Source of the DNA: Tridacna crocea
Lineage: Eukaryota; Mollusca; Bivalvia; Cardiida; Cardiidae
Assembly (NCBI GenBank): GCA_943736015.1
Contig: OX031059.1
Coordinates: 21,384,501-21,448,500, forward strand
DNA: 64,000 nt
Reading direction: 5' to 3'
Below are positions 174 through 20,108 of the stretch, one piece after another. A program made the translations under genes and the position numbers. The number at the start of each line of letters is the position of its first letter. The stretch's first letter is position 1. Below the pieces are notes generated by a model. The model was not told the origin of the DNA and ran no database searches. It worked only from the letters and a program-made list of their open reading frames with translations.

Positions 174-204
174 TAAGTAAACATTGATACATGTAAGCGC
201 TTAC

Positions 205-376
205 CTAACATGGTTACAGTACTTATAAGGTTCATGGTTAGACTAAGAGGTAGATCAGCATCACTTATGATAACAGCAACATGGCCCAGACCACCACCTG
301 GTACGCAAGCCACACATAATAGACCAAAGCGGACATTCTTCTCTAGTGGGAGAATCATTGCCAGCCCAAAAGCAAG
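205..376 (-). CDS. SLC10-family transporter, exon 2 (partial gene)
   Basis: This exon encodes 57 codons plus one base, beginning LAFGLAMILP and ending LISTVTML. It contains CVPGGGLGHVAV followed by DADLPLSLTMNLISTV, which matches the SLC10 block in which an acidic-residue-LS stretch follows the PGG loop of the fourth membrane segment. The acceptor is a pyrimidine-rich tract ending TTTCAG (AG at 378-377) and the donor is TTAG/GTAAGC at 205/204. It joins exon 1 in phase 0 and leaves in phase 1. After joining, the spacing from the MP motif to PGG fits the family. In bile-acid transporters PGG is followed two residues later by SN; here the corresponding residues are GH, which may mean a changed substrate or cation site. 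The remaining exons lie beyond the left edge. Confidence 0.8.
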
Positions 377-440
377 CTGAAATGGAAGTAATAATGTTAT
401 ATAAACATTGATATAAAATATGAGTAACTGATGTATGATT

Positions 441-540
441 TAAACCCCTAAATTTCAGCATTCTCTCCTTTTCCCACAATGTTTTCAAAGACTTTATTTC
501 TCAGGGCTGTTTACAGTTGCAATTGTATGGTAAAACTCTT
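441..540 (-). mobile_element. Family A MITE remnant
   Basis: Half of the palindrome survives (ending CCCACAATGTTTTC at 471-488), followed by a degraded right end with TATGGTAAAACTCTT. It sits about 65 bp upstream of the exon 2 acceptor. Confidence 0.6.
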
Positions 541-678
541 TTCTGAAGAATAATTATGATGTCTTAAGAATCCTTTGGAAAAGGACTTTTTACTCTGAAC
601 AGCTGTTTCGCATCAAGTGCTTCAGCAATCAGCATGATAATCAGTCAAGAAGGACAGATAAAGCCATTACAATCCAGC

Positions 679-891
679 CACGTAGGAAGCATTTCAAGAT
701 TGGGGGGCTAACTTCGAAATACTGAGATTTTTTGGGTGGCAATTGCATTGCGCTAAAAACTCATATTTTAGTTAGTAATAGTTACCATGATTTTCAAAAT
801 TATGGGGGGGGGGGGGGGGGGGGGGCTCAGCCCCCCCCCCCCCCCCCCCCCCAGCGCCCCTCCTCCCCTCCCCCTGTTCCTACGAGCCTGC
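679..891 (+). mobile_element. Short G/C-tract element with CGTAGGAA ends
   Basis: The ends are inverted (ACGTAGGAAGC at left, GTTCCTACGAGCC at right), with a run of about 21 G then CTCAG then about 22 C in the middle. A second copy in the opposite orientation lies at 40240-40425. The exact homopolymer lengths are unreliable in any assembly. Confidence 0.65.
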
Positions 892-904
892 AATCATATT
901 CATG

Positions 905-1917
905 ACTTTATATATTATGCCCTGCTAGGTTCGTCAGTTTTGGCACAGACATGCGTCTTAGAGCGTAGATGAGCTATATTGATTTTGAGGTCAAATCGGT
1001 CAAATGTCAAGGTCACAGTGATGGTCAACATGTTGATATATAAACCAAAACTTGTCCAGATGATAACTAGACACAGGATTGACCTAGGTTTGTCAATGTT
1101 GGCAAAGATATGCATCTCGGGGTGTAGATGATCTCTTCTGATTTGGAGGTCAATCAGTCAAATGTAAAGGTCACAGTGACTGTCAACATATTGATATATA
1201 GACCAAACCTTGTCCGGATGATATAAATTAAGACACAAAATTGATGTAGGTTTGTCAAATTTACAACAGGCATTTGTCTTGGAGTGTAAATGATCCCTAT
1301 TGATTTCGAGATTAATCCATCAAAGGTCAAGGTCATGGTGGCCTTCAACTTAATGATACATAAGCCAAACATTGTCCACATGATAACTATAGACACAGAA
1401 TTGATATAGGTTCTTCAAATTCCCCACAGATAATCATCTCGAAGTGTAAATGATCCCTATTGATTTTAAGATTGATCAATCAAAGGTCAAGGTCACAGTG
1501 GCCTTCCACTTAATCATATATAGACCAAATCTTGTCCAGATGATAACTACACACAGAATTGACTTAGATCCTCCAAATTCTGTACAGATATTCAACTTGA
1601 TGTGTAAATGATGCCTATTGATTTTAAGGTTAATCCGTGAAAGGTCAAGGTCACAATGACTACCATATATTTCAAGGCCTGTGCTGCCATTTGCCACTTG
1701 AGCCATTTGCTAAAAAAAATTAAAGAGTCTCAAAAATCATCTTGTGTTACTCAACTTGTGGATCCAACATTTTATCCATGTATTATTGGGGACATAGTAA
1801 GCATCAAAGTCGACAGGGAAAAAGAATGTTTTGATATCAGTTTATGAACTGTGCCACTTATTGTGTCAAAGTGGCTGTAGGGGGTCAGGACTGCTTTACA
1901 AACAGACATCTTGTTTA
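905..1917 (+). mobile_element. Tandem-repeat element with a 160-bp unit
   Basis: About 4.5 units of 158-162 bp run from 905 to 1680, marked by CTTGTCCAGATGATAACT at 1051, 1209, 1371 and 1531 with changes. A unique tail follows, ending GACATCTTGTTT near 1917. That ending recalls the CTCTTGT terminus of the other tandem-repeat carriers here. Short reading frames across it are repeat by-products. Confidence 0.6.
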
Positions 1918-2740
1918 TTTTTTGTGTCAAACTGGAGAGCTTTTACAGAGCACTTAGTTTCAGAAAGCTTTTCATAAGAGACAGAGGGCCCAATCAAGTA
2001 TGACCTGCATTTATATTGGAAGTTTTTGCATTTCTTCCTAGTACAATAAAATCCTGATCAGATGCCAAAAACACATATCTCTGAATTTTAATCTCTTGAA
2101 TTTAAGGGCGAATTGAAAGGATATTCTGAAGCCAATTTGTGACATGGGACCCTTAAAATTGGGGCTTGAGCCAATGGTTTTTTCAAAGTTTTCAAGCGCC
2201 CACTAACACCCTGCTTGACCATCAAAAAACAGCCCCTTATCTCCTGCTTCAGAGCCCCTCGATTTCTCTTGTTTAAAGTTGTAATCCAGTTTACTCAGTT
2301 GGACTGCTCATGTGTCATTGACTTTGAGCCAGTGTAAGTCTAGTGAGGTGGTTGGCGCACAAAAAAGTTAAAAAATTTATTCCTTATTTTACAGACATCA
2401 TAGACTATTGTGAATTATACTGTATTGCATTTACATCATGAGGGATTCATAAAGAAAATGTCTATTTGGCAACTTCACAAAAGATATCTAGGAAAGTCTC
2501 TTTGGCTAATTAAAATGTCATATTTGACGGAGTACTACAAGGCTAATTTGACAGGTAACATGGGAGTTTTGTATTCATCACAAAAGTGGTGGCACAACTG
2601 CCATTATATTATGAAAATTCTCAGACAAAATTTATTCCATGGACAAAAAACACCATAATCTCGTCAAAAACATTTTAAGGATTTTATAATTTTTTTGTAT
2701 TTTCATACTATGATTGTTTTTGAACAGAGTGAAAGACAAT
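1918..2740. other. Intronic sequence, nothing recognised
   Basis: AT-rich DNA without a repeat or gene that I recognise. The open stretch at 2410-2658 shows no family resemblance or splice context. Confidence 0.4.
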
Positions 2741-3936
2741 ATATGGAAAGACCAAGTCAGATTGAAGGACTAAATCTAAAAGAATGTAAAAACAGAAGTA
2801 AACAAGAGCATAAACTGAGCCTTGAGAAAAAGAAGACTGTGCCATTAAGAAAAAAAAAATGCACAAAGACCGAGTCAAAAAGAACCAAGCCAAACAGGAA
2901 TCAAAGACCAACCCAAAACAAAGACAACAACCAGATAAAATACACAGAGAATGAATAATTTTATGACCAACTACAAAGAATTGGAAGGCTAAGTCTAAAG
3001 AAGATGGAGACCAAAGTAAAAAGAATATAGAGTTGATTTTTATAAAGAAAGACTAATGTAAAAGGTACAGAAAAAGAACCCCAGAAGTCAAAAGAACATG
3101 CTATGTCAAAGAGAACATTAAGAAAGACTAAGTAAAATATACTATTAACCCTTTACCAAATGATATTTTTTTAGACTGGTCCAAATTAAAAGCACTTGCA
3201 GAGGACGAAATAAATGTAACTCAGAAATTGAAATTTGTTTCCAGCAGGGTAGAAAACATTTTGGGATAAGGAGAAAAATGCTGGTTGCCAGTATTTTCTC
3301 ATTTTCCCACAACGTTTTCAAAAGGCCTCTATCTCAGGATCGTAAAAACTAGGGATTGTTTGGTAAAGGGTTAAGACACCCAAAACAGAAAGACCTAGTC
3401 AAAAACGACGTAGCAGTAATTACCAAGTCAAGAAAAGTTTGAATACCAAGTCAAAAAGAAAGACAAAAAGAACATACTGGTAAAGAGTTTGACAGAGTAA
3501 AAAAGAGCATAAAGGCTAAGGCAAATAAGCACAAAGACCAAGTCAAAAAGAGAAAACCCATATAGACCATGTTAAAAAGAAAAAAAAATTAAGAGAAAGT
3601 CTAAAAGAACCAAGTCTTGAAGAACATACATGCAGAGTCAAACTGAGAATTGAAAACCCAGCCAAAAAGACCATAAAGACAAAGATATAAATAACATTCA
3701 AGAACAAGTCATAAAGAAAGTAACGGATCATGCTATGAAAAACATAAGGACAAATTCAAAAAGTGTTATAGATCTATTTATAAAAACCAAATCTAATGGA
3801 AAAATTTAGACTAACTCAAAATAATATGACTACCAAGCCATTGAGAGATTGAAGTGTTATTCAAGAATTAAAAAAAAAAACAAGACTAAAAGACAACATC
3901 CAAAAGAAAACAAAAGCCGATTAAAAAAAAAGAGCC
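2740..3936 (+). repeat. A-rich degenerate array, GACCAAGTCAAAAAG
   Basis: Purine-rich sequence with dozens of imperfect copies of GACCAAGTCAAAAAGAAC, at irregular spacing of roughly 15-25 bp. It is interrupted by family A copies at 3145 and 3936, and a trace continues at 4160-4200. Its lysine-rich translation is a by-product. Confidence 0.65.
3145..3374 (-). mobile_element. Family A MITE inside the A-rich array
   Basis: A complete 230-bp copy with TTAA at both ends (3145-3148 and 3371-3374). The palindrome has decayed slightly (GGTTGCCAGTATTTTC). Both flanks are array sequence, so it inserted after the array formed. Confidence 0.85.
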
Positions 3937-4160
3937 TAACTCTTTAGCACACAATCTTGACTTTCATGACCCCATGAAAGAAGCCTTTGGAAAACATTTC
4001 GGGAAAAGGAGAAAATGCTGGTAACCAGTATTTTCTCGTTTTCCCACAATGTTTTCTGCCCTTTCCAAAACAAATGTAAGTTCTTCAGTCACTTTTGTTT
4101 TGTTGTCTGCAAATGCTTTCAATTTGGACCAGTCAAAAAATTTTTCTTTCCATAAAGAGA
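3936..4160 (+). mobile_element. Family A MITE, right end lost
   Basis: It begins CTAACTCTTTAGCACACAATC and keeps the palindrome around 3995-4055. After GGACCAGTCAAAAAAT the sequence runs back into the A-rich array instead of reaching a TTAA. Confidence 0.75.
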
Positions 4161-4778
4161 TAAAGACAATGTCAAAAAGATCATAAAGACCAATACTTTA
4201 TACTTTGTCAGGAAGGATCTCACCTACTGTAGTGATATTGATTTTGAAAACTTGCTATATGAGTCTGGTTTATTGATTTCGAAACATTTGAAGATTTTTG
4301 GTACAATTATGTTATACAAAGTTTTTTCTGCTTTGCTGTCAGCTTGTGGTTACAAACATTGTAACAATGAAATCACATTGTCATACCTAGCCCTTTGAAT
4401 GCCATGTGCATCTTGATGTTGCAAATGCAGGCAAAATGGATGACAAAAAGTGCATCCTAATCTGGCATCTCCACTGTCTATCAGTGAGCAGACTGCAGCC
4501 TGGATTTCAAAAAATTCTTTCCATTTTTTCCCTAAAACTAATCACAATCACGGTTCAAACCTTGGGGGAGCGTAAATTAACTTTTTTCCAGATTTCCAAG
4601 TTTCAGAATTGTCAAAATTGAAAGGATGATTTGCATGTAGCAAGTTCAATGGGAGTAGCATGGTAGGATTTCTCCACAAAAATTTTAAGTGAGGGAATAG
4701 AAGAAAATGCTGCTTTTATCAAAGTGTCTATAATGCTTTAAACCACACAATCCTGCTACAGATTTGTTGGTGAAATGT
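4161..4778. other. Intronic sequence, nothing recognised
   Basis: Apart from a trace of the A-rich array at its start, I see no gene, RNA or repeat. Confidence 0.4.
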
Positions 4779-4997
4779 TTAACCCTTTACTCCATAGATA
4801 CTCATTTCTACGCATTTCTTGTAGGAGCCTTTGGAAAACATTGTGGCAAAGGGTGAAAATGCTCATGACGAGCAATTTCACTTTTTGTCACTATGTTTTC
4901 TATGCTATCATATTCATATTAGAAACGGCTTCATCCTTGCTGTTATTTAGGGCCAGTTAGAGATACCATAGAAATGCCTAACAGGGTAAAAGGTTAA
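4779..4997 (+). mobile_element. Family A, subfamily B MITE
   Basis: It has the same TTAA ends and GAAAACATTGTGG arm start as family A. The centre is different: AATTGCTCATGACGAGCAATT-like, here GCTCATGACGAGC. The right half (AGAAACGGCTTCATCC) is also its own. The sister copy is at 13350. It shares its right TTAA with the next element. Confidence 0.8.
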
Positions 4998-6220
4998 CAG
5001 TTTACCATACAATCCTGAGTTTTAACGACCTTGAGGAATCTGTGAGCCTTTTGAAACTATTGTGGGAAAAAGAGACTATGCTGGTAATCAGCATTTTCTT
5101 CATTCCCACAATGTTTTCTAACCTTTCAAAGAAAAAGTTTCTAATTTGTTCAAATTTTGATTTGTTGTCTGCAAATGTTTTGAATTTGGACTACCGTAAT
5201 TTGCGTATATTTTGGGACACCCAAAGAATTGGGACACCATCAAAAATCACGAAAATAATTATTTTTCATGACCCAAAGATTTGGGACATACTAAAAATTG
5301 CAAAGCAAGATCGGTAATTTTTTGTTCCAAAGAATTGGGACAGTGAATATCTTATTTAATTTCCTTTTTTCAATCGGTTGATAGGCCTACCCTTTGCAAA
5401 TATTTATTTCTCGTCGTTTTATTTTTACGCTCGTAACGTCGTAAGCATGCTTCCTAACTCTCCCCATTTCAATAGGAATTACCCGATCCAAGACGAAAAA
5501 CCCGATCACCTGATTGTCTAATGTAAACACCAATTCAAAAAGAAATCCGACGTAACTGTAAAAAGGGTGTGATAAACTTCTATCCAAGATCCATAACACG
5601 TATAACGTGTGTGTACATCAGGTTAACAGAGTTGACACGCGTGTATTTTACGGTCAATCGAGTTTGTTGTTTATAAATAGAAATCTAGGTACACAGTTTT
5701 ACCCAAGGTTTATCGATCGAAGATCGACGAACCAATCAAATTTGAGAACGGTCCGAGCTGGTACTTGTCAAGAGTGCAGTTAACGTCGTTCACCTCGCGT
5801 ACATGTAAGCAGGTAAAATATGTTGTGAATTTTTTCTACAAACGCAAAATAACGTTTTTATTGATATCCCAAGATGCAAACAAAAATGAGTGAAAAGTTC
5901 ATAATCGAGGAAAATCGCAAGCTCTTAGTGCTCAAACTGATCGGTGGAATTCCAATCAGTCTAAAAATAGACCAACCTGCAAACCTGACATCAATCACGT
6001 TGCAATATTTCAACGTCGGCAATATTCGATGTGTAAGCGGCGAGTGACTTTCACTTTGACAGACCGTCGTGTTTGACCATAAGTTTTGGGACAGCTGACA
6101 GAATAATTATTTTTTGTAGACCAAAGTATTGGGACACGAAAAAAATTAATTATTTTTTGCTGTCCCAAAATTTAAGCATATTACGGTAGTCTAAAATTTT
6201 GCCATTTCGTAAAGGGTTAA
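4994..6220 (+). mobile_element. Family A MITE split by a Tc1-like insertion
   Basis: The left part (4994-5193) and the right part (6187-6220) make one family A copy. The junction reads TTTGGAC-TA-[insert]-TA-GTCTAAAAT. Uninterrupted copies read TTTGGACTAGTCTAAAAT at this place, so the empty site is known. Confidence 0.85.
5192..6188 (+). mobile_element. Tc1/mariner-like non-autonomous element, 993 bp, TA target
   Basis: Flanked by TA at 5192-5193 and 6187-6188. The inverted ends are CCGTAATTTGCGTATATTTT at left and, read inward, CCGTAATATGCTTAAATTTT at right, each followed by GGGACA. The motif CCAAAGAATTGGGACA recurs inside both ends. No transposase frame is visible. The interior is richer in CpG than its surroundings. 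Confidence 0.85.
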
Positions 6221-6222
6221 GC

Positions 6223-6445
6223 ATTATCAAACAGTACCAAGTTACATCAGTTACATCAACACTGAGGTCAATAAAGCTTTTGAAAACATTGTGGGAAAAT
6301 TAAGAAATACTGGTGACCAGCTTTCTTCTTCTTTGGACATGTTTTATGTTGTTTTCATAAAAAAATTTATATTTTGATCCAAAATTAATAATGTCGTCGG
6401 TAAATGCTGCCAATGTGGACGAGTCTAAAATTTTTTTGTCTGCAA
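6223..6445 (+). mobile_element. Degenerate family A MITE
   Basis: CTTTTGAAAACATTGTGGGAAAA and a decayed right half (GTCGTCGGTAAATGCTGCC, then GACGAGTCTAAAAT) are recognisable. The ends are not. Confidence 0.5.
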
Positions 6446-6599
6446 AAGTGTCTAAATACGTCCAAAATATTAAGTCTAGATCTGTAGGTTAAACCTTGTG
6501 GGAGCAGATTAATTGTAATTTTGTTGGGGAGAAATATCTGACTTTATATGGTAGATCAATGATAGAGTTCAATATTCCAGACAAAAGACTTATCTTTGC

Positions 6600-6792
6600 C
6601 TAACTCTTAACCAAAACCCAAAATGAAAATAACCCTAATCTACATGCAGAACCTATTAAAACACTGGGAGAAAAAGGGGTAAATGCTGGAAACCAGCATT
6701 TTTCCTTCTTTTCTCACAATGTTTTCTTCCTTATTTAAAGAAAAATCCCATCATTTCAGCCCCACTGCTTTTGTCCTCTGCAGATGTTTTAA
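6600..6792 (+). mobile_element. Degenerate family A MITE
   Basis: It retains CACTGGGAGAAAAAGG and AAATGCTGGAAACCAGCATTT. The right half has been shortened and runs directly into the next copy. Confidence 0.55.
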
Positions 6793-7060
6793 CACATTAC
6801 CAAACAACAAAATCTTAGGTTTGTCCAAATTGAAAGCATGTGCAGACGACAAAATAAAAGTGACTGAAAATTTGAAATTTGTCATGTGAAGTGTAGAAAA
6901 CATTGTGGGAAAAGGAGAAAATGCTGGTTACCTGCATTTTCTCCTTTTCCCACAATGTTTTCTAAAGGTTTCAGACCTTTACCTCCCCTTTTCCCACTAT
7001 ATTTGCAAAAGCTTCTTTGTATCACAGGGTCACAGTATGATAAGGTACCAGTAGGTGGTA
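6789..7060 (-). mobile_element. Family A MITE with a duplicated arm segment
   Basis: TTAA at 6789-6792 is followed by a good left half and the full palindrome (6893-6961). An extra CTCCCCTTTTCCCACTAT stretch was then inserted before the usual CAGGGTC right half, whose end has decayed. Confidence 0.7.
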
Positions 7061-7330
7061 AAGGTTTGAAAAAGAAGGGAAATATCTGGCAGTGTAATTT
7101 TGCAGACTACAGCAATTCTCGAATGTTTAATTCTTTAAGTTCCTGATAATTGTTTTCAAATTTCCAAATTTGGAGTTATTCAATTGCCCGTTGACTCCAA
7201 CAGTGTGATTTCAGTAGCCATATTGTCTAGTTCCAAGACTTGAAATTGCGGAAGATTTGCAAAATGAGAGTTTTTCAACATATAGTCTCACTCTGCAGTA
7301 GAATATTTAAATGGGTTTTTTTTTTTTATT

Positions 7331-8856
7331 GTGCTTCAAAATGTCCATAGTTGTTGTCAGGCTATTTTCAAAAGTTACCTTTGTGTACTCTTGAGGTCAT
7401 ATCTAATGTTTGTCTCGATAATATCCTGGACATGTTTGAAATTGGGTCACATTGGGCAAAAAAGTAGGTCATCTGGATCAACTCTTAGAAAAAATTTTGT
7501 GTCCACTGTAGAGGCTACAGTGATACTCAGTTAAATAGTCATAGAAAGTAGACATCATGCTTTTCCTGACAGTATTTTGAAGGCAGGTCACGTAGGGTCA
7601 AAAAGGCTAAATTGCAGTACACTACTGACAGGACAAGGTATTTTTGTCTTGATGATATCTGGGACTAGCTAAATTTAAGTCATTTAAGGGCAAGAAGTAA
7701 GTCACTGAGACATATTTTGAAAAATACCCTTAATGATGTCTAGAGACCTTATTTTCAATCTAATAGCAATGAAACTTGGTCAGAATGTTTTTCTTGACAA
7801 TACCTCGAACATATTTGATATTGGGTCAAAAAGTGGGTCACTTTAACAAGTCTAAGAACAACTTTGTGTATACTTTTGAGGCCATTATTTTCAGTATGAC
7901 ACCCATGAACTTTTGTGAGAATGTTTGTCTAGATAATACTAGTACCTTGCACAAGTTAGAAAGCAGGCACATAGGGTAAATATAGGTAGGTCAATGAGCC
8001 AGATCCAATCAAAACTTGTTTGCACACTCTACAGGCCACATTTTAAGTGTGATCGTATACAAAATCAAAGCGTTGAGAACGCTGAGGTGGTATTTGCCAA
8101 GGAAACCCATTGCGTGGAATCAATAGTTTGAAAGAAAAAGAGACATATTGTTCAAATTAATACCTTTTCGGTTGAAGGGAAAATACTCATGTACCTTAAA
8201 ACTATAATTTTGAAATATTTACATTTCATTTCCAACATTACAATTAATTACTTCAATCTATAAATATTCATGAGCAATCAAATACAGTAGCATGCAATCA
8301 CAGGACGAACAAGCCATGGAACGAATTGGTTTTGGAACGAAAAAGCGCAGGGTCAGTAGGCAAATTTGTATCATTGCGCCAATAAAAGGCTATGAGCAAG
8401 AGAAGCTATTTTCAACCAAAAATAAGTATATAAAGGATCGATTGCCTCGCTCAATGTATTTTAAAATGCCATTTCTAATTACATATCTGTGTGCCTGAGA
8501 AAGAATGAGTTTAACTGGGTTTATTTCCTTCGGCTTTGCACAAAATAAGATACATGGTTATCAAAATTCAATCTTGAACTCATAGTGGTATTGTCTTCGA
8601 CAAATACCACAAAAATTGTCAGAATGTTTGTCTGGATAATATCTGGATAAGTTCGATTTTGGGTTACATAGGGTCAAAAAGTCAGTTGCTTGCACAGATC
8701 TCAGATAAACCTTGTGTGTACTTTACAGACCACATTTTCTTTGTATTTTGTTGATCATTGTTAAAAACTTGAACATTATTACAAATGTGAAAAAGACTTT
8801 TCCAGTCCTAGATTACTTTACTCAGGTGAGTGCTCTAGGGCCAAGGACCCTCTTGA
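7331..8856 (+). mobile_element. Diverged 145-bp tandem-repeat element, interrupted
   Basis: Several old units recognisable by GTTTGTCT-GAT-ATAT and GGGTCA-AAA-GTAGGTCA lie at 7331-8056 and 8610-8820. The 3' end at 8819-8856 is CTCAGGTGAGTGCTCTAGGG with a GGGCC..GGACCC hairpin and CTCTTG, as in the 33.7-kb copy. A foreign segment lies between. Confidence 0.6.
8090..8610 (+). mobile_element. Insertion with GTGGTATTTG inverted ends
   Basis: The left end reads GTGGTATTTGCCAAGGAAAC and the right end, read inward, GTGGTATTTGTCGAAGACAA. The host tandem repeat resumes directly after the right end. No clear target duplication was found. Confidence 0.5.
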
Positions 8857-8879
8857 TTTCAATGGTTTTTAGCTTCAGG

Positions 8880-9172
8880 AAGGTAGCTCAGCATTTCACA
8901 AGACTTGAAAATGGGGAAATGCTGATCTGATCCTCCATTTCATCTGATTTTATGGATTGATGGTAAACTCATGATTCATAGAATTCATTCCTCTGTGCAC
9001 CTTTAAACATTATTTTAATAATGGAAATGGAAAAGTAGCTACTGGCATGTGAAGATTATTGCGCAAAATAATGGTAAAAAGAAACTCAAGGAAGGCATGA
9101 CTATTTGCACTGCTTACTAATTATTATAGCAGAAAAAATAATTGAAAATGGCATGAAACACCATACAAACAC
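8880..9172 (+). mobile_element. Old tRNA-derived SINE
   Basis: A box A-like GGTAGCTCAGCATTTCACAAG and the family body (GGATTGATGG, AAAGAAACTCAAGGAAGGCA, GAAAATGGCATGAAACACCA) are visible. It is well diverged from the best copy at 18955. Confidence 0.6.
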
Positions 9173-9199
9173 ATGATGAACAAGCCTAAATATTTTCAG

Positions 9200-9552
9200 T
9201 GACATAGACAGATCTGATGTGATCTCATGGATTATGTCTTTGGTAATATAACAGTGCATATTTCACTCCAGATTGTTACCAGATTTCTAAATTAGGTCAC
9301 ATTAATATAACATCAATCTGATAATGGCGGCAAAAATAGTGCTGATTTTTGTCCCGCTAATCCGATGAAAATGCCACCAAGGGCCTCCCCAGTACATCAT
9401 GTGAAAATAATGAATCGATTGGACTTGTGTAATATTTGTGGTCATGTGTCTTCCAACCCTTACCCAAATAACGAAATTGTGGACTCTTCCAAATTCAAAG
9501 TAAAATTGTAGACATTAACCCATAGAATGCTGAATAAATGAAATGGACATTT
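9200..9552. other. Intronic sequence with one repeat scrap
   Basis: Only a fragment of a family A end (CCCTTACCCAAATAACG, about 9458) is recognisable. Confidence 0.4.
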
Positions 9553-9770
9553 TATACCCTGTACCATACAATCCTAACATTAAATGACCCTGAGAAAGAA
9601 GCTGTTTGAAAATATTGTGGGAAAGGAGAAAATACAGGCAGCCAGCATTTTCTCATTTTCCCACAATGTTTCTACCCTTCCCAGAATGATTTTCAATCTT
9701 TCATTCCCATTTATTTTGTCATCTGTCAATGCTGTTAATTTGGACCAGACTAAAATTTTGTTGTTCAGAG
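9553..9770 (+). mobile_element. Family A MITE, ends decayed
   Basis: GTACCATACAATCCTAAC opens the copy and GACCAGACTAAAATTTTGTTG closes it. The palindrome has decayed at its centre (ATACAGGCAGCCAGCAT). Confidence 0.75.
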
Positions 9771-9841
9771 CAAAATAGGAAAAACATTTGAAATATTGCT
9801 GCATTAAACTTGTTTTGGCCAGAACATGTAAAAAAACAGTG

Positions 9842-9903
9842 GACAGTGTAGATCAAAGATTAGACTGCACATTTTATGGAGTCTAATCTTGATCTACATT
9901 GTC
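9842..9903. repeat. Perfect-looking 24-bp inverted repeat
   Basis: The arms 9842-9866 and 9880-9903 read GTAGATCAAAGATTAGACT and AGTCTAATCTTGATCTAC around a 13-base loop, with one extra A in the left arm and one mismatch. It is not part of family A or D. Confidence 0.75.
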
Positions 9904-10159
9904 TAGTATGGAGATATTTTTTCCCCAAAATTAATTTGGAATATCAATATTTGGATTTTACCAAGGCATGAAAGTTTCATTTGGTATATTTACAGCAGGA
10001 TAAGAGATAATATCTGCTGTTATTCATTAAAGGGAAGGGAACTGTGAATCTGTTATTGTGCACAAGAAAATATGATGGAGACATTTATTTGCTTTTCTTT
10101 TATGGTGTAAAGAACTATTTTCAACATTTTCAATTTACTTCTCGGCAGCTGATGCAGTT

Positions 10160-10362
10160 ATACATGCATTCCAGGAGTTTCTTTTACCAGTACTTGGTAC
10201 AGAGTGTACTTCACAAGCCACTGGCTGCTTTCTCAAGTAATAATAATCTTTGAAAGATTATTATGATAGTGCTAAGAGAAGTATGAATCCTGTTGCAATG
10301 ATTATCATCAATCCAAAGAAACAAATTGCATAGCTGGGGCCTAAGCCAGTGACACCTTAAGC
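10160..10362 (-). mobile_element. Old tRNA-derived SINE body, minus strand
   Basis: AGTTTCTTTTACCAGTACTT and CACAAGCCACTGGCTGCTTT are reverse complements of the SINE body seen at 18955. The tRNA-like head at the right is barely recognisable. Confidence 0.55.
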
Positions 10363-10409
10363 TCATGTCCTGTTTGCTACCCACTGCGATGCCAGGATGG
10401 GCTTTCAGC

Positions 10410-10640
10410 TTTTAATCTCTTTACCAAACAAGAAATTTTTGTCTCGCATAATGTATTACAAGACCTGTATACTATAATTATATTAGATTTAGGGTCACAC
10501 AGGGGATCATGATCCTGGATAGGATGTAAGAAACTGTTGGAAAAGAAGAAAATGCTGATCAGAAATATCATCTCTTCTTCCTGCCGCTTTTGAGGAAAAG
10601 AGAGACTACCACCTCTTTTATCCACAACTTTTTAAAGGAT
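10410..10640 (-). mobile_element. Degenerate family A MITE
   Basis: It opens CTCTTTACCAAACAAGAAATTT and keeps GAAGAAAATGCTGATCA. The rest of the palindrome is broken. Confidence 0.45.
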
Positions 10641-11093
10641 TTTATCCAATGAATTATGAAAACAGAGGATTGGTTGACATTATCATAGTCATAAAGCATT
10701 AATTCAGGCAAAGGAACCAATATAGTAGCCTTCCTGGAGTTAACTTTCTTGACAAAACATTTGACTTCAAACTTTATATGTTGGTGTTATCCAGCAACAT
10801 TTTCTCTTGTATCTTCAATATTTTCTACTCCTTCAAAGACATTCAATGATTCATCTAACAGCTTTTGATCATTTCCAAGCAATGTTTCAACCCTATGAAA
10901 GACAGAGCCATGTTACAACGCTTTGTAATAAACGTGCAAAATGTAATAAGTATTACAAAATGTGTTGTGATTACATGAAATGTAATAAGAAGTTATGCAA
11001 CACGTTTTGTAATAAACTTGCAAAATATAATAATCTGTGTTCCCTGGGCCCCAGTTCTAAGATGTTGAATAGAAGGACAGGCTTCTTTTAACT

Positions 11094-11323
11094 TTAACTC
11101 ATTTCCAAACGACAATATTTTAGAATGGTCCAAATTGAAAGCATTTGCAGACGACAAAATAAAAGTGACTGAAAATTTGAAATTTGTTTTGTGAAGGGTA
11201 GAAAACATTGTGGGAAAAGGAGAAAATGCTGGTTACTAGCATTTTCTCCTTTTCCCACAATGTTTTCTAAAGGCTAAAGACCACAAGGGCGTCAAAAGTA
11301 GGAATTATGTGGTAATGGGATAA
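11094..11323 (-). mobile_element. Family A MITE in the left arm of the fold-back element
   Basis: TTAA at 11094-11097, with the right TTAA changed to ATAA (11320-11323). The right arm of the host shows the empty site (AACTTTAATAGATTAAGG in arm orientation), so the insertion point is fixed exactly. Confidence 0.85.
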
Positions 11324-11417
11324 TAGATTAAGGTTTTGTCATATGCCTTATAACTTCGATCACATTAAAATGCCTTGAACATTTATTTTCTTTCATTATC
11401 ATGTATACTAGCTATAC

Positions 11418-11648
11418 TTAACCCATTACCACACAATCCCTACTTTTAACGCCCCTGAGAAAGAAGCCTTTTGAAAACTCAGTAGGAAAAGGAGAAAATG
11501 CTGGTAACCAGCATTTTCTCCTTTTCCCACAGTCTTTTCTACCCTTCCCAGAACAAATTTCGATTTTTCAGTCACCTTCATTTTGTCATCTGAAAGTGCT
11601 TTTCAATTTGAACTAGTCTAAAATTTTGTCACATGGTAAAGAGTTTAT
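11418..11648 (+). mobile_element. Family A MITE inside the fold-back element
   Basis: TTAA at 11418-11421. The right target is changed to TTTATC near 11644. The palindrome is intact except that the left arm reads ACTCAGTAGGAAAAGG. Confidence 0.8.
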
Positions 11649-12471
11649 CAATCAGTTTTTTGTCTTTTTATCAAAAATTTTTAGAACTGGGGTCGTGGGA
11701 TAAAAGATTATTACAAATTGCAGGTTTATCATGAAACACATCGTGAAAACATTTATAACAATTTATGCAATTGCAACGCATTTTGTAATAATTCTAAATC
11801 ATGACTGATAGTAGATTGTCTTGTTTTGATCATACATGCATCTACTTAATGTGATATTGAATGAAAAAAAATCAGTTGTGTGTAAATGTGATTGAAGTTT
11901 ATGACAAATCTGTAATCGATCAAAGTCTCTGTCTTTCAATAAAAAAATTTAGAAGTGGGATTCTGGGATAAAAGATTATTACGAATTGCAAGTTTATTAC
12001 AATATGCGTCGTGAAAACATTTATAACAATTCATATAAGTGCAACATATTTTGTAATAATTCTAAATGATGATATTAGATATTCTTCATTCGATCATAGC
12101 TAGTATACATGGTAATGAAAGAAAATAAATGTTCAAGGCCTTTTAATGTGATCGAAGTTATTAAGCATATGACAAAACCTTAATCTATTAAAGTTAGAAG
12201 AAGTCTGTCCTTCTATTCAACATCTTAGAACTGTGGCCCAGGGAACAAAGATTATTACATTTCGCAACTTAATTACAAAAAGCGCATAACTTTTTATTAC
12301 ATTTCATGTAGTCACAATGCATTTTATAATACTTCTTACATTTTGCAGGTTTATTACAAAATGCGTTGTAACAGAGCCATCCGTTTAAGCCAGATTTAAA
12401 TGGTCATGTGCAAAATATTATGTTTTCATTTTGATCAGTCTAAATAAAAGCTTTGTTGCCTGGAAAAGCTT

Positions 12472-12694
12472 TCACTTTTTACCAAGCAAGAATACTTTAA
12501 ACTCATTCATAATTGAAAGCTTTTGTGGAGAACAAAGCCAATATGAAACAAAGAATTCATATTCAACAGGGAAGAAAACAGTGTGGAAAAAGGAGAAAAT
12601 GCTGATAATCATCATTTTCTCCTTTTTCTCATGATGTTTTCCAAAGCCTCCTTCCTCAGAATTGTTGAAACCTTGGATTGTTTAGTAAAGAGTC
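12472..12694 (-). mobile_element. Family A MITE, aged
   Basis: Opens TTTTTACCAAGCAAGAATAC. The palindrome is AAAATGCTGATAATCATCAT, and it closes with GGATTGTTTAGTAAAGAGTC. Confidence 0.7.
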
Positions 12695-13035
12695 CAAGTG
12701 TTAGCCTTGAGGTATGTGTAATTGTGAAGACGTCTCGAATAACACAATTTGTGGACAGAACTAATTATTTTCCCAGTTTCCTGGTATTTTTAGAGCAAAT
12801 TCTGAGCCAGTCATTGATTTTTTTCATGAGAAAATATAAAATCTGTGGATCACTTTTCTGGCAGTAGATAAATCTGTGTTTAATGACAGTCATTCGAAGT
12901 TTGTACGGCAAGGAATATTTTGACCACATAGCAATTTAACCGATCAGCTAACAGTATTTTGAAATCGTAAACCAAAGAGACCATGTACCAAAGAAACAAT
13001 TGTCATAGTTGTGTATCTCTACATATAATAGTTGT

Positions 13036-13330
13036 GTATGCATATTATTCATACTGAGCCCTCTAACACAGTAGCACACAGGACTCACAAAGTGCGGATT
13101 GATGGTTCAACTGGCTCGGCAAATTTGTATCTGAGGGTTAATAATAGCCATTACAACAGAATTTCATTCCTGTCTCTCACTGCTCATCATTGCTTTGATG
13201 ATGATTATGTGGGAAAACAGCCAATGGCTTGGAAGAATATGAGTATGTGGGGCACTGAGGTAAGGTAAGCCTGGATAGATGCAATGGCCATCACCATATA
13301 ACTGAAATAATGTTGAAAACAGCGTTGAAG
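13036..13330 (+). mobile_element. tRNA-derived SINE, head decayed
   Basis: The body is clear (TTATGTGGGAAAACAGCCAA, TGGCTTGGAAGAATATG, GCCATCACCATATAACTGAA, GTTGAAAACAGCGTTGAAGA). The promoter boxes have been lost. Confidence 0.65.
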
Positions 13331-13349
13331 ACCTTGCAGTATTGGCTCT

Positions 13350-13578
13350 TTAACCCTTTACTCCATTGATACTCGTTTCTACGCATTGCTTGTAGGAGCC
13401 TTTTGAAAACATTGTGGCAAAAGCTGAAATTGCTCATGACGAGCAATTTCACCTTTTGTTACAATGTTTTCTATGCTATCAAAAGGTGTCATATACACAT
13501 AAGAAACAGCTTCATCCTTGCTGTTATTTAGGGTCAATTTGAGTTGGCTTAGAAATGCCTTACGGGGTGAAGGGTTAA
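13350..13578 (+). mobile_element. Family A, subfamily B MITE, best copy
   Basis: TTAA at 13350-13353 and 13575-13578. The palindrome centre is GAAATTGCTCATGACGAGC and the arms carry GTGGCAAAAGCTG. The right half is specific to this subfamily (CAGCTTCATCCTTGCTGTTA). Confidence 0.85.
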
Positions 13579-13589
13579 ACAATCAATCC

Positions 13590-13715
13590 CAAAATCCCAA
13601 GTTTTTACAAAGAATGGAAAAGTCTCAAAGCTTTTGAAAAAAAAAATGTTAGAAAAGGAGAAAATGTTGGAAACCAGTATTTTCTCTCTTTCCCGCAGTG
13701 TTTTCTAGCCTTTAA
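13590..13715 (+). mobile_element. Family A fragment
   Basis: It holds the palindrome (GAGAAAATGTTGGAAACCAG) but no right half. It abuts the next copy. Confidence 0.6.
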
Positions 13716-13929
13716 CCCTTTAACACATGATGAAATTTTGGACCTTTATAATTAGCCAATAATTTGCATGTTGCTCAAATAATGATTTCTGTCTTTGACA
13801 GGGTAGAAAACATTGTGGGAAAAGGAGAAAATGCTGGTTACCAGCATTTTCTCCTTTTCCCACAATTTTTTCAAATTAGTCTCCTTTCCTTCAGTCGTGA
13901 AAATTAGGGATTGTTTTGTAAAGGGTTAA
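13712..13929 (-). mobile_element. Family A, subfamily C MITE
   Basis: TTAA at both ends. The left half has ATGATTTCTGTCTTTGACAG in place of the usual AAAGTGACTGAAAATTTG, which marks subfamily C. The palindrome is intact. Confidence 0.8.
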
Positions 13930-13934
13930 AAGGC

Positions 13935-14028
13935 AACTTCTATCATTTGGGCAGCACGTAATTTGATTTTTGCAAATTATGATTTCATTTGGGTCCAATC
14001 TAGAATTTTATTGTACTGTGAAGGGTTA
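13935..14028 (+). mobile_element. Family A right-half fragment
   Basis: TTTGGGTCCAATCTAGAATT and GTGAAGGGTTAA are the right end of a copy whose left part is missing. Confidence 0.55.
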
Positions 14029-14165
14029 AAATCAATGAATCAGCTGACATGGAAGATTGCAAATTGTAATAATTTAGATTATTGCTTTTAAAGGATGGTT
14101 TGCAGGCTCTGTAATGAATTGAAGCATGAGGCCGCATGATTAAAACTGTTATAATGACTTTATGT

Positions 14166-14397
14166 CTAACTCTTATACCAAACGACAAAAATTTAGACTG
14201 GTCCAAATTGAAAGCATTGCAGACAACAAATTAAACATGACTCAAAAAATAAAACTTGTTTTGGGAAAGCTAGAAAACATTGTTGGAAAAGGAGAAAATG
14301 CTGGTTACCAGCATTTTCTCCTTTTCCTACAATGTTTTCAGAATGCTTCCTCCTCAGGGTCGTCAAAAGTAGCCTGGATTGTGTGGTGATGGGTTAA
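14166..14397 (-). mobile_element. Family A MITE, first of a chain
   Basis: The left target is CTAA and the right TTAA (14394-14397) doubles as the left target of the next copy. Confidence 0.85.
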
Positions 14398-14593
14398 CTC
14401 TATCAAACGTCAAAAATTTAGATGACGAATAAACCTGACATAAAAATTGAAACTTAACTTTAGAAATGTAGAAAACATTGTGGGAAAAGGAGATAATGCT
14501 GGTTACCAGTATTTTCTCCTTTTACTACAATGTTTTCAGAAGGCTTCTTTCCTCTGGGTTGTAAAAACCAGAGCTTGTTTTGTAAAAGATTAA
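14394..14593 (-). mobile_element. Family A MITE, second of the chain
   Basis: The left half is shortened by about 30 bp (ends GACGAATAAACCTGAC). The palindrome and right half are complete, ending TTAA 14590-14593. Confidence 0.8.
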
Positions 14594-14726
14594 CAGAATT
14601 AACCAAATTTCCTTTTTGAAGACTAAAATCTTGTCCAAACTGTACGTCACTAGCTATAAAAGTCAAAATTTCGTCTCTGTAGGCCTTGAACCTACAATAT
14701 TTACTATTCATGGTCTTCGACTTCTA

Positions 14727-14953
14727 TTAACTCTTTAAAGACAAGATTTTGGACTAGTCCAAACTGAAAGCATTTGCAGACAAGAAAATAAATTTGACCC
14801 TAATTTTGAAGATTGTTTTGGGAAGGATAGAAAAACACTGTGGGAAAAGGAGAAAATGCTGGTTACCAGTATCTTCTCATTTACCCACAGTGTTTTCAAA
14901 AGGATTCTTTTTCAGGGTCTATTAAAAGTGGGGATTGTGTGGTAAAGAGTTAA
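14727..14953 (-). mobile_element. Family A MITE
   Basis: TTAA at 14727-14730 and 14950-14953. The right palindrome arm is worn (ATCTTCTCATTTACCCACAG). It shares its right TTAA with the next copy. Confidence 0.85.
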
Positions 14954-15178
14954 CCCTTTACCAAACGACAAGATTTTAGACTGGTCCAAATTGAGAGCAC
15001 TTGCAGACGACAAGGTAAAGGTAACTCAAAAATTGAAATTTGTTTACAGCAAGGTAGAAAACATTGTGGGAAAAGGAGAAAATGCTGGTTACCAGCATTT
15101 TCTCCTTTTCCCACAAGGTTTTCAAACGGCTTCTATCTCAGGGTCGTAAAAACCAGGGATTGTTTGGGAAAGGGTTAA
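14950..15178 (-). mobile_element. Family A MITE, near-consensus
   Basis: TTAACCCTTTACCAAACGAC opens it and GGGAAAGGGTTAA closes it. The palindrome at 15055-15121 has a single change (AAGG for AATG near its end). Confidence 0.9.
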
Positions 15179-15185
15179 GTGCATA

Positions 15186-15266
15186 CCAGGCAACCGGGCG
15201 AGGCCTGCTAGATAGCTCAGTGGTTAGCATGACTCGTGAATTGGTGGTCGCAGGTTCGATACTCAG
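15186..15266 (+). mobile_element. tRNA-like SINE head between two MITEs
   Basis: Box A TAGCTCAGTGGTTAGCATG and box B GGTTCGATACTC are present at tRNA spacing. The acceptor stem does not pair and no 3' body follows, so this is a SINE head cut short, not a tRNA gene. Family A copies bound it on both sides. Confidence 0.6.
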
Positions 15267-15495
15267 TTAACCCTTTCCCAAACGACAAACTTTTGGATTA
15301 GACCAAATTGAAAGTATTTGCAGACGACAATTCAACTCTTGCTGAAAAGATGATTTCTGTCCATGATAGGGTGGAAAACATTGTGGGAGAAGGAGAAAAT
15401 GCTGGTTACCAGCATTTTCTCCTTTTCCCACAATATTTTCAAAAGCTTACTATTCCAGACCAGTAAAAACCAGGGATTGTTTGGGAAAGGGTTAG
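15267..15495 (-). mobile_element. Family A, subfamily C MITE
   Basis: Opens TTAACCCTTTCCCAAACGAC. The left half contains CTTGCTGAAAAGATGATTTC. The right target has become TTAG. Its mirror-oriented sister is at 30312. Confidence 0.85.
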
Positions 15496-15730
15496 GGCAA
15501 ACACTCTTTCGAATTAATTTTCGCTTCTCACCTCTGATGCATGTTAGGAAATTTGACAGTGGTTTGGATAACAAAGGTGTGACATTGCTGGTAGGCAAAA
15601 AGCCAGGAATCACACACATAGCTGCACTGGCCATGATGATATGACCCAAGCTGTTAAAACAGTGTTAAACTCTTAAATGCAAAAGAATCTAGATGACAAA
15701 ATTTGACATCAATTTGTCTAAATTCAAACA

Positions 15731-15907
15731 GAGCTCCAGATAAGAGGGAGTGATGGTATTCTAAATTCATCATTTCTCTGCAAAACCTTATCTTGTGGGT
15801 ACTCATTAGAATCGTCTCATTGCAACGATTCTAATGAGTACCAATAACATAGGGTTTAGTGGAGAATTATTTTATTTTTAACTTTGAAATCCCTCTATCT
15901 GGAGCTC
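15731..15907 (+). mobile_element. Family D hairpin MITE, best copy (177 bp)
   Basis: The ends are GAGCTCCAGATAAGAGGG and CCCTCTATCTGGAGCTC. The centre is a hairpin GGTACTCATTAGAATCGT..ACGATTCTAATGAGTACC around a short loop. ACCTTATCTTGTGGG and its partner CATAGGGTTTAG flank the hairpin. Surrounding sequence looks like decayed family A. Confidence 0.85.
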
Positions 15908-15914
15908 AGACTGT

Positions 15915-16087
15915 AATCAGAGAATTTGGAGACAACAATTTAAATCTTGTGAACAAATGACAGGATTGGTCTTAAAGCTTGAAACTGCAGAAAACATTGT
16001 GAAAAAAGGAGAAAATGCGGGTTACCAGGCATGTTATGGTACAGGGTTAAAACTTGTAATAACTAGGATAGTGTGACAAAGAATTAA
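15915..16087 (-). mobile_element. Family A MITE with deleted right arm
   Basis: The left half and left palindrome arm (GAGAAAATGCGGGTTACCAG) are followed directly by the terminal part. It shares TTAA 16084-16087 with the next copy. Confidence 0.6.
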
Positions 16088-16306
16088 CCTTTGTCAAACA
16101 ATGAAAGTTTGGACTGGACCAACCTCAAAACACTTGCTGAAGTCAAATTGAAAGTAGTTCACATGATGATATCTTTGACAAGACAAAAAAAAACATAGAG
16201 GGAAAAAGAGAAAATGCTGGTCATACCAGTATTTTCTCCTTTTTCCACAATATTTTCAAAAACCTTATGGGTTGTCAAAACATGGGATTGTGTGCTAAAG
16301 GGTTAA
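16084..16306 (-). mobile_element. Family A, subfamily C MITE
   Basis: Both TTAA targets are present. The palindrome centre has two extra bases (GCTGGTCATACCAGTA). Confidence 0.8.
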
Positions 16307-16439
16307 AAGGAAATTGGTGCTGATGAGAGTCTCTATACAATAGAAGTTCATTGATTTACTCAGTCAATAAAGTGTGTGTAGAATAGAAGCCAGTTCCAAT
16401 ATTCTGTCATTATACTGTCAACTCTTTGGATTTACAAAG

Positions 16440-16620
16440 GTGTCCATATACCCTTTACCTTTGGTGTTGGTTATGTGGGAAAGCAGCTAGTGGCCTGGGA
16501 AGAATATTATGCTATCTATTTGTCAAAGAAACTCCAAGAAAGCTTGGCTTAGGCACATCGGCTACTGTCATATAACTGAAATAAATTTTGAAAACGGTGT
16601 TAAACACCATACAAAAAAAC
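16440..16620 (+). mobile_element. SINE 3' body
   Basis: GGTTATGTGGGAAAGCAGCT, AGAAACTCCAAGAAAGC and TTGAAAACGGTGTTAAACAC match the SINE at 18955. The tRNA head is missing. Confidence 0.65.
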
Positions 16621-16631
16621 CATCAGTCAAT

Positions 16632-16815
16632 TTAATCCTTTACCACACAATTTTGAGGGTTTTTTTAATGACACTGAAAAAAAAACATTGAAACATTGTG
16701 AAAGAATACAGGCTATCAGCATTTTCTCCCTTTCACACGATGTTAACTTCTCAGAAAAAAATTCACACGATGTTAACTTCTCAGAAAAAAAATCCAATCA
16801 GTTCGGTAACATTTA
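16632..16815 (+). mobile_element. Family A MITE with internal duplication
   Basis: It opens TTAATCCTTTACCACACAA. The right half contains two direct copies of ACACGATGTTAACTTCTCAG (about 16736 and 16768). The terminal right half has eroded. Confidence 0.65.
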
Positions 16816-16819
16816 ACTC

Positions 16820-17033
16820 TTAACTCTTTACCAAATGACAAAATTTTAGACTGGTCCTAATGAAAAGGATTTGCAGATGACAAAATAAAAGTGACTGAAA
16901 ATTTGAAATTTGTCCTGAGAAGGGAAAAACATTGTGGAAATGGTAACCAGCATTTTCTCCTTTTCCCTCTATGTTTTCAAAAGGCTTCTTTCTCAGGGTT
17001 GTTAAAAGTTGGGATTGTGTAGTAAAGAGTTAA
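16820..17033 (-). mobile_element. Family A MITE lacking part of the left arm
   Basis: GGAAAAACATTGTGGAAATGGTAACCAGC shows that the AAAGGAGAAAATGCT part of the left arm is gone. Both TTAA targets remain. Confidence 0.8.
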
Positions 17034-17490
17034 ACCTTTATCCCAAAATTTCGGCGTTTCAACCACCATGAATGAGAACCAGCATTTTCTCTTTTTCCCA
17101 CATTGATAACTCAAAACCAAATGACAGAATTCTAGCAAGTAATCCAATTGAAAGGAACTGCAGACAACAAATAAATGTGACTCAAAATTTGAAATTTGTT
17201 TTTAGAAGTGTAAAAAAGGAGAAAATGTTCGGGTTATCAGAGATTTCTACTTTTCCCATATCGCTTCCTTCTTTACCAAAGGACAAATTTCAGACTGGCC
17301 CAAATTAAAAGCACTAAATCTTGCAGACGACAAAATCAATGCAAGTCACAAATTGAAATTTGTTTCCAGCAAGATTGAAAACATTGTGGGCAAAGGAGAA
17401 AATGCCCTTTTTCTAAGGGTTGTAGTAACTGGGGATTGTTAAGCCTACTATGTCGGGGTCGTTAAAACTTTGGATAGTGTGGTAAAGAGT
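17030..17490 (-). mobile_element. Scrambled family A pieces
   Basis: At least three partial copies follow each other: a short left part with one arm (17030-17105), a left half at about 17105-17275 with the centre changed to AATGTTCGGGTTATCAGA, and a third copy at 17275-17490 that lost its right arm. Confidence 0.6.
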
Positions 17491-17735
17491 AAAAGACAAG
17501 TTCTGTTATTTAAGTCATGTTGATACTATTATCTGCAATGCTTTCAATTTGAACAAGTCTGAAATTTTGTCATCTAGTTAAATGAAAATGAAATTTGCCT
17601 CTTGCAGCATTGAAAATATTGTGCAAAAAGAGAAAAATGGTGGTAACCAGCAATTTCTCCTTTCCCACAAAGTGTTAAAAAGTCTAATCTTCTTCAAGGT
17701 CATTAGTACTTGGGTTTATGTGGCACAGGGTTTAG
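17491..17735 (+). mobile_element. Two family A fragments
   Basis: 17491-17580 is a right half (TGCTTTCAATTTGAACAAGT, GAAATTTTGTCATCTAGT). 17590-17735 keeps the palindrome (GGTGGTAACCAGCA) and a worn right end. Confidence 0.55.
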
Positions 17736-17867
17736 CCATTATCAGCATTTCTTTCAAGTTATATTATTGCAGATAGTCCACCAACTGGAAATTCCTGGTT
17801 TCGTCTTTTAAAAGTAAAACATTGTACTGCTAGAAACACTAATTCCAACTGACCAACTACAAATCAT

Positions 17868-18094
17868 AACTGTTTAGCATATGACAGTTATATGGACCTC
17901 TGTAAAATTATCTAAAACATATCCAGATGGCAAATCACATCTCCCTCAAAGGGTGCAAACTGTCTTGAAAGGATTGAAAACATTGTGGGAAAGGAGAAAA
18001 TGCTGGTTACCAATGTTTTCTCCCTTTCCTACAATGTTTTCAAAAGCCCATTCCTTAGGATCTTTAAAAGTTGGAATTGTGTAGTAAAGGGTAA
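17868..18094 (-). mobile_element. Family A MITE, aged
   Basis: GAAAACATTGTGGGAAAGG and CCCTTTCCTACAATGTTTTC mark the palindrome. The right end reads GTAGTAAAGGGTAAATTAA. Confidence 0.7.
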
Positions 18095-18439
18095 ATTAAT
18101 TGGTTTAAATAATTTAATATTCAGCAATGAATAGAGGAAGGAATCATTTTACAATGACTGTAATTTGTTAAAAAAAATCTGGTGCAGGTTGGGATTGATC
18201 TATTAAAGCCTTGATTATGAGCCTGAACTACAGAGTGCTTGCAACATGCAATCTGATCCTGAGCCATACCACCGGTTAATATCATTAGATAAATACAAGC
18301 ATTCAGACAAGATAATTTTTGAAACTACATGACATGGGCATTTAAAGACATTATAAAAAGAGGGGGCAACTCTAGTAATCATTTTATGAGCCATTAAAAT
18401 GTAGACTTATATGAAATAAAAACGGGGTCCTGTCCTAAT

Positions 18440-18575
18440 TATGAGGTTTGTGTTCAAAAGGGTAAAAGATATTTTGAGGAAAAGAGAAAATTATAGCCCT
18501 TTTAATTAACTATCTCAGTTTTTTCCCTAATGTTTTCAAAAGCCTTCCTCATCATTGAATTGTTTGGTAGATCTT
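18440..18575 (-). mobile_element. Degenerate family A MITE
   Basis: Only TTTTGAGGAAAAGAGAAAAT and CCCTAATGTTTTCAAAAGCC remain recognisable. Confidence 0.4.
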
Positions 18576-18681
18576 CTCACGAAGAAAAGGGGTCAGTTTT
18601 AGTGTAGAAGAAAATAGACAAAAAATTATAAAAAAAAAAAGAGACAAGGGGCAGAAATAGTCTTAGGATATCACAAACTAC

Positions 18682-18907
18682 TTAACCCATTACCACACAA
18701 TCCCTACTTTTGATGCCCCTAAGAAAGATACTTTTAGAAAACATTGTGGGAAAAGGAGAATGCTGGTAACCAGCATTTTCACCTTTTCCCACAATGTTTT
18801 CTACCCTTCACGAAACAAATTTCAAATTTTCAGTCACTTTTATTTTGTCGTCTGCAAATGCTTTCAATTTGGACCAGTTTAAAATTTTGTCGTTTGGTAA
18901 TGAGTTA
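18682..18907 (+). mobile_element. Family A MITE flanked by 16-bp direct repeats
   Basis: TTAA at 18682-18685 and 18904-18907. The flanking sequence ATCACAAACTACTTAA occurs at 18670-18685 and again at 18908-18923, much longer than the usual 4-bp duplication. Confidence 0.85.
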
Positions 18908-18954
18908 AATCACAAACTACTTAAAGTACATAACCCATAAGGTTGAAAATGGCA

Positions 18955-19240
18955 GCCGAGTTCCAGTAGCTCAGTTCTCAGGACTTTGAGAAGAGTGGGG
19001 TGCTCTGGTTCGATCCTCAGCTCTGCCAACTTCTCCTAAGGATTGATGATGGTCATTGTGACAGGATTCATTCCTCTCACCTCTGAATATTGTTTCAATT
19101 ATGGTTAGGTGGGGAAGCAGCCAGTGGCTTGGAAAGAATACTGTAAAGATTACTGGTAAAAGAAACTCCAGGAAAGCATGGATATGTGCAACTGAAATAA
19201 GTTTGAAAATGGTGTTAAACACCAAACAATCAATCATAAA
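18955..19240 (+). mobile_element. tRNA-derived SINE, best copy
   Basis: Box A TAGCTCAGTTCTCAGG (18972) and box B GGTTCGATCCTC (19008) start a body with GGATTGATGATGGTCATTGT, GGGAAGCAGCCAGTGGCTTG and AGAAACTCCAGGAAAGCATG. It ends GTGTTAAACACCAAAC and (AATC)n. It lies about 140 bp from the 3' side of the SLC10 exon 1, inside intron 1. Confidence 0.8.
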
Positions 19241-19376
19241 AATGCCAGTTAATATATTATGTTGAGATGTTTGAAATATCCAGCTGCCTTTACCTTTATA
19301 TATAATTTTAAGTTAATAAAGCTTTTGATTTGGAAGAGCTTAGGTCAGAGATAGGTTGTAAGAGAGAGATACCTAC

Positions 19377-20108
19377 CACAGGCATGAGTAGAAATTGGCA
19401 ACAAAAGCCAATGATAAGCGAAACAGGATGTTTCAATTGCCTTTTTAAATTCTCTGTATCTGTAACACATCCTATTCCGAAACTTATCAAAATAGCCACT
19501 GCTGCTGCTGAACAGTCAAACACAAAATCTGCCGTCTTTTGACGAGGAATTACTGTCACTTTGTATTCCGACTGCCCCAGCTGGGACATTTGTGTTGATC
19601 TAGCCATTACAAGGGAGCTCGTTCCAAAAATAGTAACAACTACTTTCACATATCCGATGCTCATGGCTTGAATTGTGAAATTATTCACACCATTTAGTTT
19701 AATAGGAAACTCAAGATCTGGTGTTAAATATGGACCAATTTTCAATGGTTCATTTGCATTTGGTACAAACATATCATCCGGAATCACAATTTGCACTTTT
19801 TTTCCATTCTGTGAAACCACTCGCGCATAATATGTTCCATTTGTGGTAAAAAACACATCTGTGTTTGTGTCACTAACGTCTTCCAATGAGCAATTAAAGT
19901 AGACTGTGGCATTGCAGCCTTGTATTAGCTCATTGATTGATGTAGGTTTAAAGTGGAGCTGGATTGTTCCATTGTAGAGCGGGAACTCTGTACTGGCAGC
20001 AGACGACTTGTTGACAGTGTGAAACGGAATGGTAGAATTGATTTCTGGGAAAGTTAAAGACATTATTAGGGCAACATGGAGCAATCTCAGCCACAAAAAT
20101 GTAGACAT
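19377..20108 (-). CDS. SLC10-family transporter, exon 1 (N-terminal half)
   Basis: 244 codons from ATG at 20108. Residues 1-19 form a hydrophobic signal peptide (FLWLRLLHVALIMSL). Residues 20-193 are an extracellular domain rich in beta-type sequence, with N-glycosylation sequons at N24, N33, N46, N66, N72, N90 and N143. Residues about 195-215 are the first membrane segment, then GIGCVTDTENLKRQLKHP, the short loop typical of SLC10, and a second segment ending CCQFLLMPV. The open frame continues to 19308, but that part has no family resemblance. The donor GTG/GTAGGT after codon 244 joins in phase 0 to exon 2 and restores family spacing. A long glycosylated N-terminus is like that of SLC10A3/A5 types, not the short one of bile-acid carriers. 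The family is secure; substrate and orthologue are not. Confidence 0.85.

Follow-up and report, generated by a model that had tools for sequence, protein, structure and literature searches.

The window analysed here, a stretch of 64,000 nucleotides from Tridacna crocea (G000:C4:21384501-21448500, from a 1.05-Gb assembly), carries on its minus strand the first two coding exons of an SLC10-type gene. Coding exon 1 is an open reading frame that runs from the ATG at 20108 to 19377 (732 nt, 244 codons). It encodes a start that looks by eye like a signal sequence, a presumed ectodomain and the beginning of the SBF domain, and its C-terminal QFLLMPV is followed by the donor GTG/GTAGGT at 19376. Intron 1 (377..19376, 19,000 bp) ends with the acceptor CATTTCAG/CTT before 376. 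Coding exon 2 (376..205, 172 nt) is joined in phase 0, starts with LAFGLAM, includes the motif PGGGLGH and ends in phase 1 at the donor TAG/GTAAGC at 204, so that positions 1..204 hold the first part of intron 2 (2,269 bp in full). The third exon lies beyond the window, about 2.3 kb past exon 2 (G000:C4:21381732-21382435, i.e. window -2768 to -2065), and is the one additional significant match obtained when paralogue queries were run against the 100 kb beyond window position 1. It is on the minus strand, in order and in phase 1, with an acceptor TTTCAG/GT and 704 nt up to a stop codon. From ATG to stop the gene extends over about 22.9 kb and encodes a protein of 535 aa.

The membrane domain of this protein belongs to a known family. 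The 535-aa protein matches columns 5-186 of the 191 columns of SBF PF01758 (residues 206-383, E 9.1e-21, 74.8 bits for a cut-off of 24.3) and also TIGR00841 (E 2.5e-40), with a score that stays under the cut-off of the latter (138.7 bits for 326.3). Among PDB sequences, 19 are found at E <=0.001, 16 of which are named sodium/bile acid or SLC10 transporters and three only 'Transporter'. Taken one by one, exon 1 covers SBF columns 5-43 (E 5e-4; its 20.2 bits fall short of the curated cut-off of 24.3) and exon 2, which passes this cut-off, columns 44-103 (E 2e-6). In the family profile, exon 2 thus takes up directly where exon 1 stops. The join is free of gaps in all three alignments inspected among 20 matches (each with a bacterial-type transporter; the set of 20 includes one unrelated sequence, E 0.4) and in all five inspected among the 19 PDB matches (four NTCP-type, one bacterial-type). 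From the QF..MP stretch to PGG, the profile and these alignments show SLC10/SBF spacing without gap. An additional exon between exons 1 and 2, which a family alignment might have called for, is ruled out by the same profile and inspected alignments.

The sequence-only reading had joined exons 1 and 2 into one SLC10 gene, in phase 0 across 19 kb, and had placed a third exon upstream of position 1 on the minus strand. The adjacent SBF columns, the gap-free join, the third exon in phase with its acceptor and stop, and the paralogues that carry an intron at the same position all bear this out. As this genome holds several copies of SLC10-type exons (C4, three genes on C10, C11 and C15), exons 1 and 2 might conceivably derive from two different tandem SLC10 genes that were partly lost, their contiguity being only apparent. 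This is extremely improbable, since exons 1, 2 and 3 each give a single significant match within the 164 kb examined and lie on one strand, ordered and in phase. Judged from the DNA, exons 1-3 very probably constitute one complete and intact SLC10-type transporter gene, split by an ordinary spliceosomal intron; the spliceosomal type of intron 1 is drawn from its GT..AG ends and from the reading frame being kept.

Donor sites were scored with a generic weight matrix. The donor of exon 2 ranks in the top 0.2% of the minus-strand GT sites. That of intron 1 is moderate, as 1.7% of the 3,295 minus-strand GT sites of the window score equally or better, and two donor-like sites located at most 300 nt into intron 1 outscore it. 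An overlapping donor 4 nt downstream of 19376 was rejected because it is 3 bits weaker than the phase-0 donor and breaks the frame with exon 2.

The paralogues give information on the age of intron 1. Searching the genome with PF01758 yielded nine exon matches, from which the exons of the window are absent, and a protein search yielded ten, two of which are the window's own. In the three C10 paralogues, exon 1 ends with MPL or MPT and exon 2 starts with LGYG, IAFA or IALG, in phase 0. This junction corresponds to MPV/LAFG of the window gene, with the same codon boundary and phase. In one of them (paralogue B), the second intron is also in the same phase as in the window gene. The matches on C11 and C15 continue through this point without intron. 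As compared in sequence, the four genes whose first exon is long have intron 1 in common, and only that of the C4 member is long (19,000 bp vs about 2,018, 1,361 and 1,310 bp in the C10 paralogues). Since the position of intron 1 is common to the three paralogues, it is older than those duplications. Growth in the C4 copy, rather than three shrinkages in the paralogues, is the simpler reading. In one bivalve annotation, for a genome about twice as large, the mean intron is 4,375 bp and the mean gene 23,950 bp (PMC11373642). By comparison with this one other annotation, a 19-kb intron would be long but not exceptional; no intron length usable as a yardstick came from the accessible text of papers on scallop and on Ostrea edulis.

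Intron 1 is rich in a short element, here called family A, whose 238-bp model has inverted ends and an internal palindrome (model positions 63 to 129). The window holds 182 matches to this model, or 105 once overlaps are removed. The sequence-only reading had put about 28 family A MITEs in intron 1; this count has to be replaced by 37 non-overlapping matches, 18-19 of which cover at least 200 of the 238 model positions. Sixteen near-full-length copies are found at 3143-3381, 3935-4164, 11093-11324, 11416-11647, 12470-12698, 13345-13579, 13710-13933, 14167-14401, 14725-14953, 14950-15180, 15266-15497, 16088-16308, 16818-17036, 17265-17495, 17867-18096 and 18679-18908. Intron 1 also includes a tandem array (977..1660, 4.3 copies of a 158-bp unit). 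At 804-852, a G run, CTCAG and a C run might fold into a long G/C hairpin.

Repeat density was compared with that of adjacent sequence on the same contig. The share of family A is 34.4% in intron 1, against 16.9% in the 97 kb that follow exon 3 and 25.0% in the 44 kb before exon 1 (upstream). In seven non-overlapping 19-kb blocks taken outside the gene it lies between 10.3% and 34.2%, and 0.4% of 517 overlapping 19-kb windows outside the gene reach the share of the intron, which is 1.9 times their mean (18.4%). The family A density of intron 1 is therefore at the upper end of what is seen locally and not beyond it, one neighbouring block being nearly equal. Sequence matching the other 145 kb examined on C4 likewise amounts to 46.8% of intron 1, the highest of the eight blocks (16.8%-44.0% in the rest).

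These two top ranks are what would be expected if MITE insertion accounted for the length of intron 1. This explanation is nevertheless rather unlikely, and family A by itself does not account for the length: if its copies are subtracted, more than 12 kb of the intron remain, and the short first introns of the paralogues hold two or three family A matches each, i.e. about 23%, 25% and 34% of their length. Family A and the other repeats from the neighbouring 145 kb together make up 52% of intron 1, leaving about 9 kb that match neither, part of which might still be assigned to repeats with a genome-wide library; this remainder counts in the 977-1660 array wherever the array has no outside match. 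The earlier view of a gap filled by mobile elements thus stands for about half of the intron, these 9 kb not being recognised as repeats.

One of the ends of family A starts with CCC and the other with CTC, and the two are alike as inverted repeats at 15 of 18 positions. Of 40 near-full-length copies, 24 have TTAA close to both ends, for a chance expectation of 16% per end, but the model itself extends into TTAA. A separate genome-wide search for family A, in which 40 of 3,781 candidates were scored, gives a lower bound. The genome is also rich in piggyBac transposases (118 matches). The TTAA near the ends suggests a possible piggyBac-type origin of family A. In bivalve genomes, the share of MITEs is described as considerable in the relevant part of PMC10294476.

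A Pfam scan of 13 of the 83 open reading frames of at least 60 codons revealed no hidden gene in intron 1 above the curated cut-off, the sole match being Cys_box (E 0.046, 14.2 bits for a cut-off of 29). Neither Rfam, at its gathering thresholds, nor ARAGORN reported any RNA gene. Upstream of the gene, the window contains tandem arrays of a 145/146-bp unit at 33765-35634 (12.9 copies) and 31720-32217 (3.5 copies), and one of a 165-bp unit at 27623-28290 (4 copies). Two open frames, 61592-62026 (+, 144 codons) and 42168-42632 (-, 154 codons), have no Pfam match at E <=0.1, and family A matches overlap both ends of the second one.

The residues that bind sodium in NTCP are largely replaced in the window protein. 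The NTCP sites are described as S105, N106, T123 and E257 for Na1 and Q68 and Q261 for Na2 (PMC9242856). The mutations S105A/N106A, E257A and Q261A are reported to inhibit taurocholate uptake and T123A to lower expression (PMC8773476). Aligned with NTCP, the window protein has G275, H276, N293 and E427 at Na1 and Q238 and L431 at Na2. It keeps one of four and one of two NTCP residues, respectively, short of what an NTCP-type sodium-coupled carrier would show. Residues 275, 276 and 293 are encoded by exon 2 (window 205-376) and residue 431 by exon 3, outside the window. At the positions of S105, N106 and T123, the three C10 paralogues keep the residues of NTCP, and they have Q at the Q68 position. 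Paralogue B retains E and Q at the E257 and Q261 positions; paralogues C and D were compared through exon 2 only.

With four of the six residues changed (S105 to G, N106 to H, T123 to N, Q261 to L), two-sodium coupling as in NTCP is improbable, and the window protein would be closer to the orphan SLC10 members; it is probably not an NTCP-like two-sodium symporter. The same four changes might also mean that the C4 copy is a pseudogene, or that it has lost selection as a transporter. This is very unlikely, considering that all 535 codons are open, that the four intron ends are all GT or AG and that the exon phases are the same as in paralogue B. As for an intact gene, it is possible, if doubtful, that it encodes an ectodomain-bearing protein of SLC10 fold that has lost sodium coupling, the paralogues of this genome having kept the sites; such a protein might be a sodium-independent carrier or a non-transporting surface protein. 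Among the matches listed, a literature search on SLC10 in bivalves, on the phylogeny of invertebrate SLC10A3/SLC10A5 and on sodium binding by SLC10A5 returned nothing to the point.

Taken together, the locus can be viewed as follows. The gene would encode a 535-aa membrane protein of the SLC10 family (sodium/bile acid symporter fold), whose N-terminal ectodomain is presumably glycosylated. Its intron 1 predates the duplications of the paralogues and measures 19 kb in the C4 copy, within a repeat-rich stretch. This intron, which contains copies of family A, further repeats and some 9 kb that no repeat match explains, would be spliced out as an ordinary spliceosomal intron, and the 535-aa protein would then arrive at the membrane. 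The value of these results is mainly one of annotation: the gene model is settled and the missing exon 3 is added. The long intron 1 is shown to be an old one, common to the paralogues and of large size in a single copy, and the changed sodium sites imply that the C4 copy should not be labelled a bile acid:sodium symporter without test.

Family A may be compared with piggyBac-type MITEs for its inverted ends (15/18) and for the TTAA that 24 of the 40 copies have close to their two ends. Scanning 20 of the 118 piggyBac transposase places revealed no autonomous partner flanked by ends like those of family A.

The gene itself is a new member of the known SLC10 family. Its membrane domain aligns with those of SLC10/SBF proteins such as NTCP and ASBT (residues 206-383 according to Pfam, 196-444 with NTCP). 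It differs from NTCP and ASBT by its three coding exons, by an intron 1 located at SBF column 43/44 and by a long N-terminal part, a presumed ectodomain of about 190 residues with seven N-glycosylation sequons within residues 1-195. P3 and P5, the products of SLC10A3 and SLC10A5, would likewise have a long N-terminus as well as a PGGG motif. The likeness of the window protein to these two, which is one of description and not of sequences, includes a length greater than that of NTCP (349 aa in human, vs 477 aa for P3 and 438 aa for P5; PMC10298714). In the part of this source that deals with P3 and P5, transport of bile acids or steroid sulphates is reported as not found. The window protein, with its 535 aa, differs from both in length, and its three coding exons contrast with the single coding exon of human SLC10A5 (PMC10298714).
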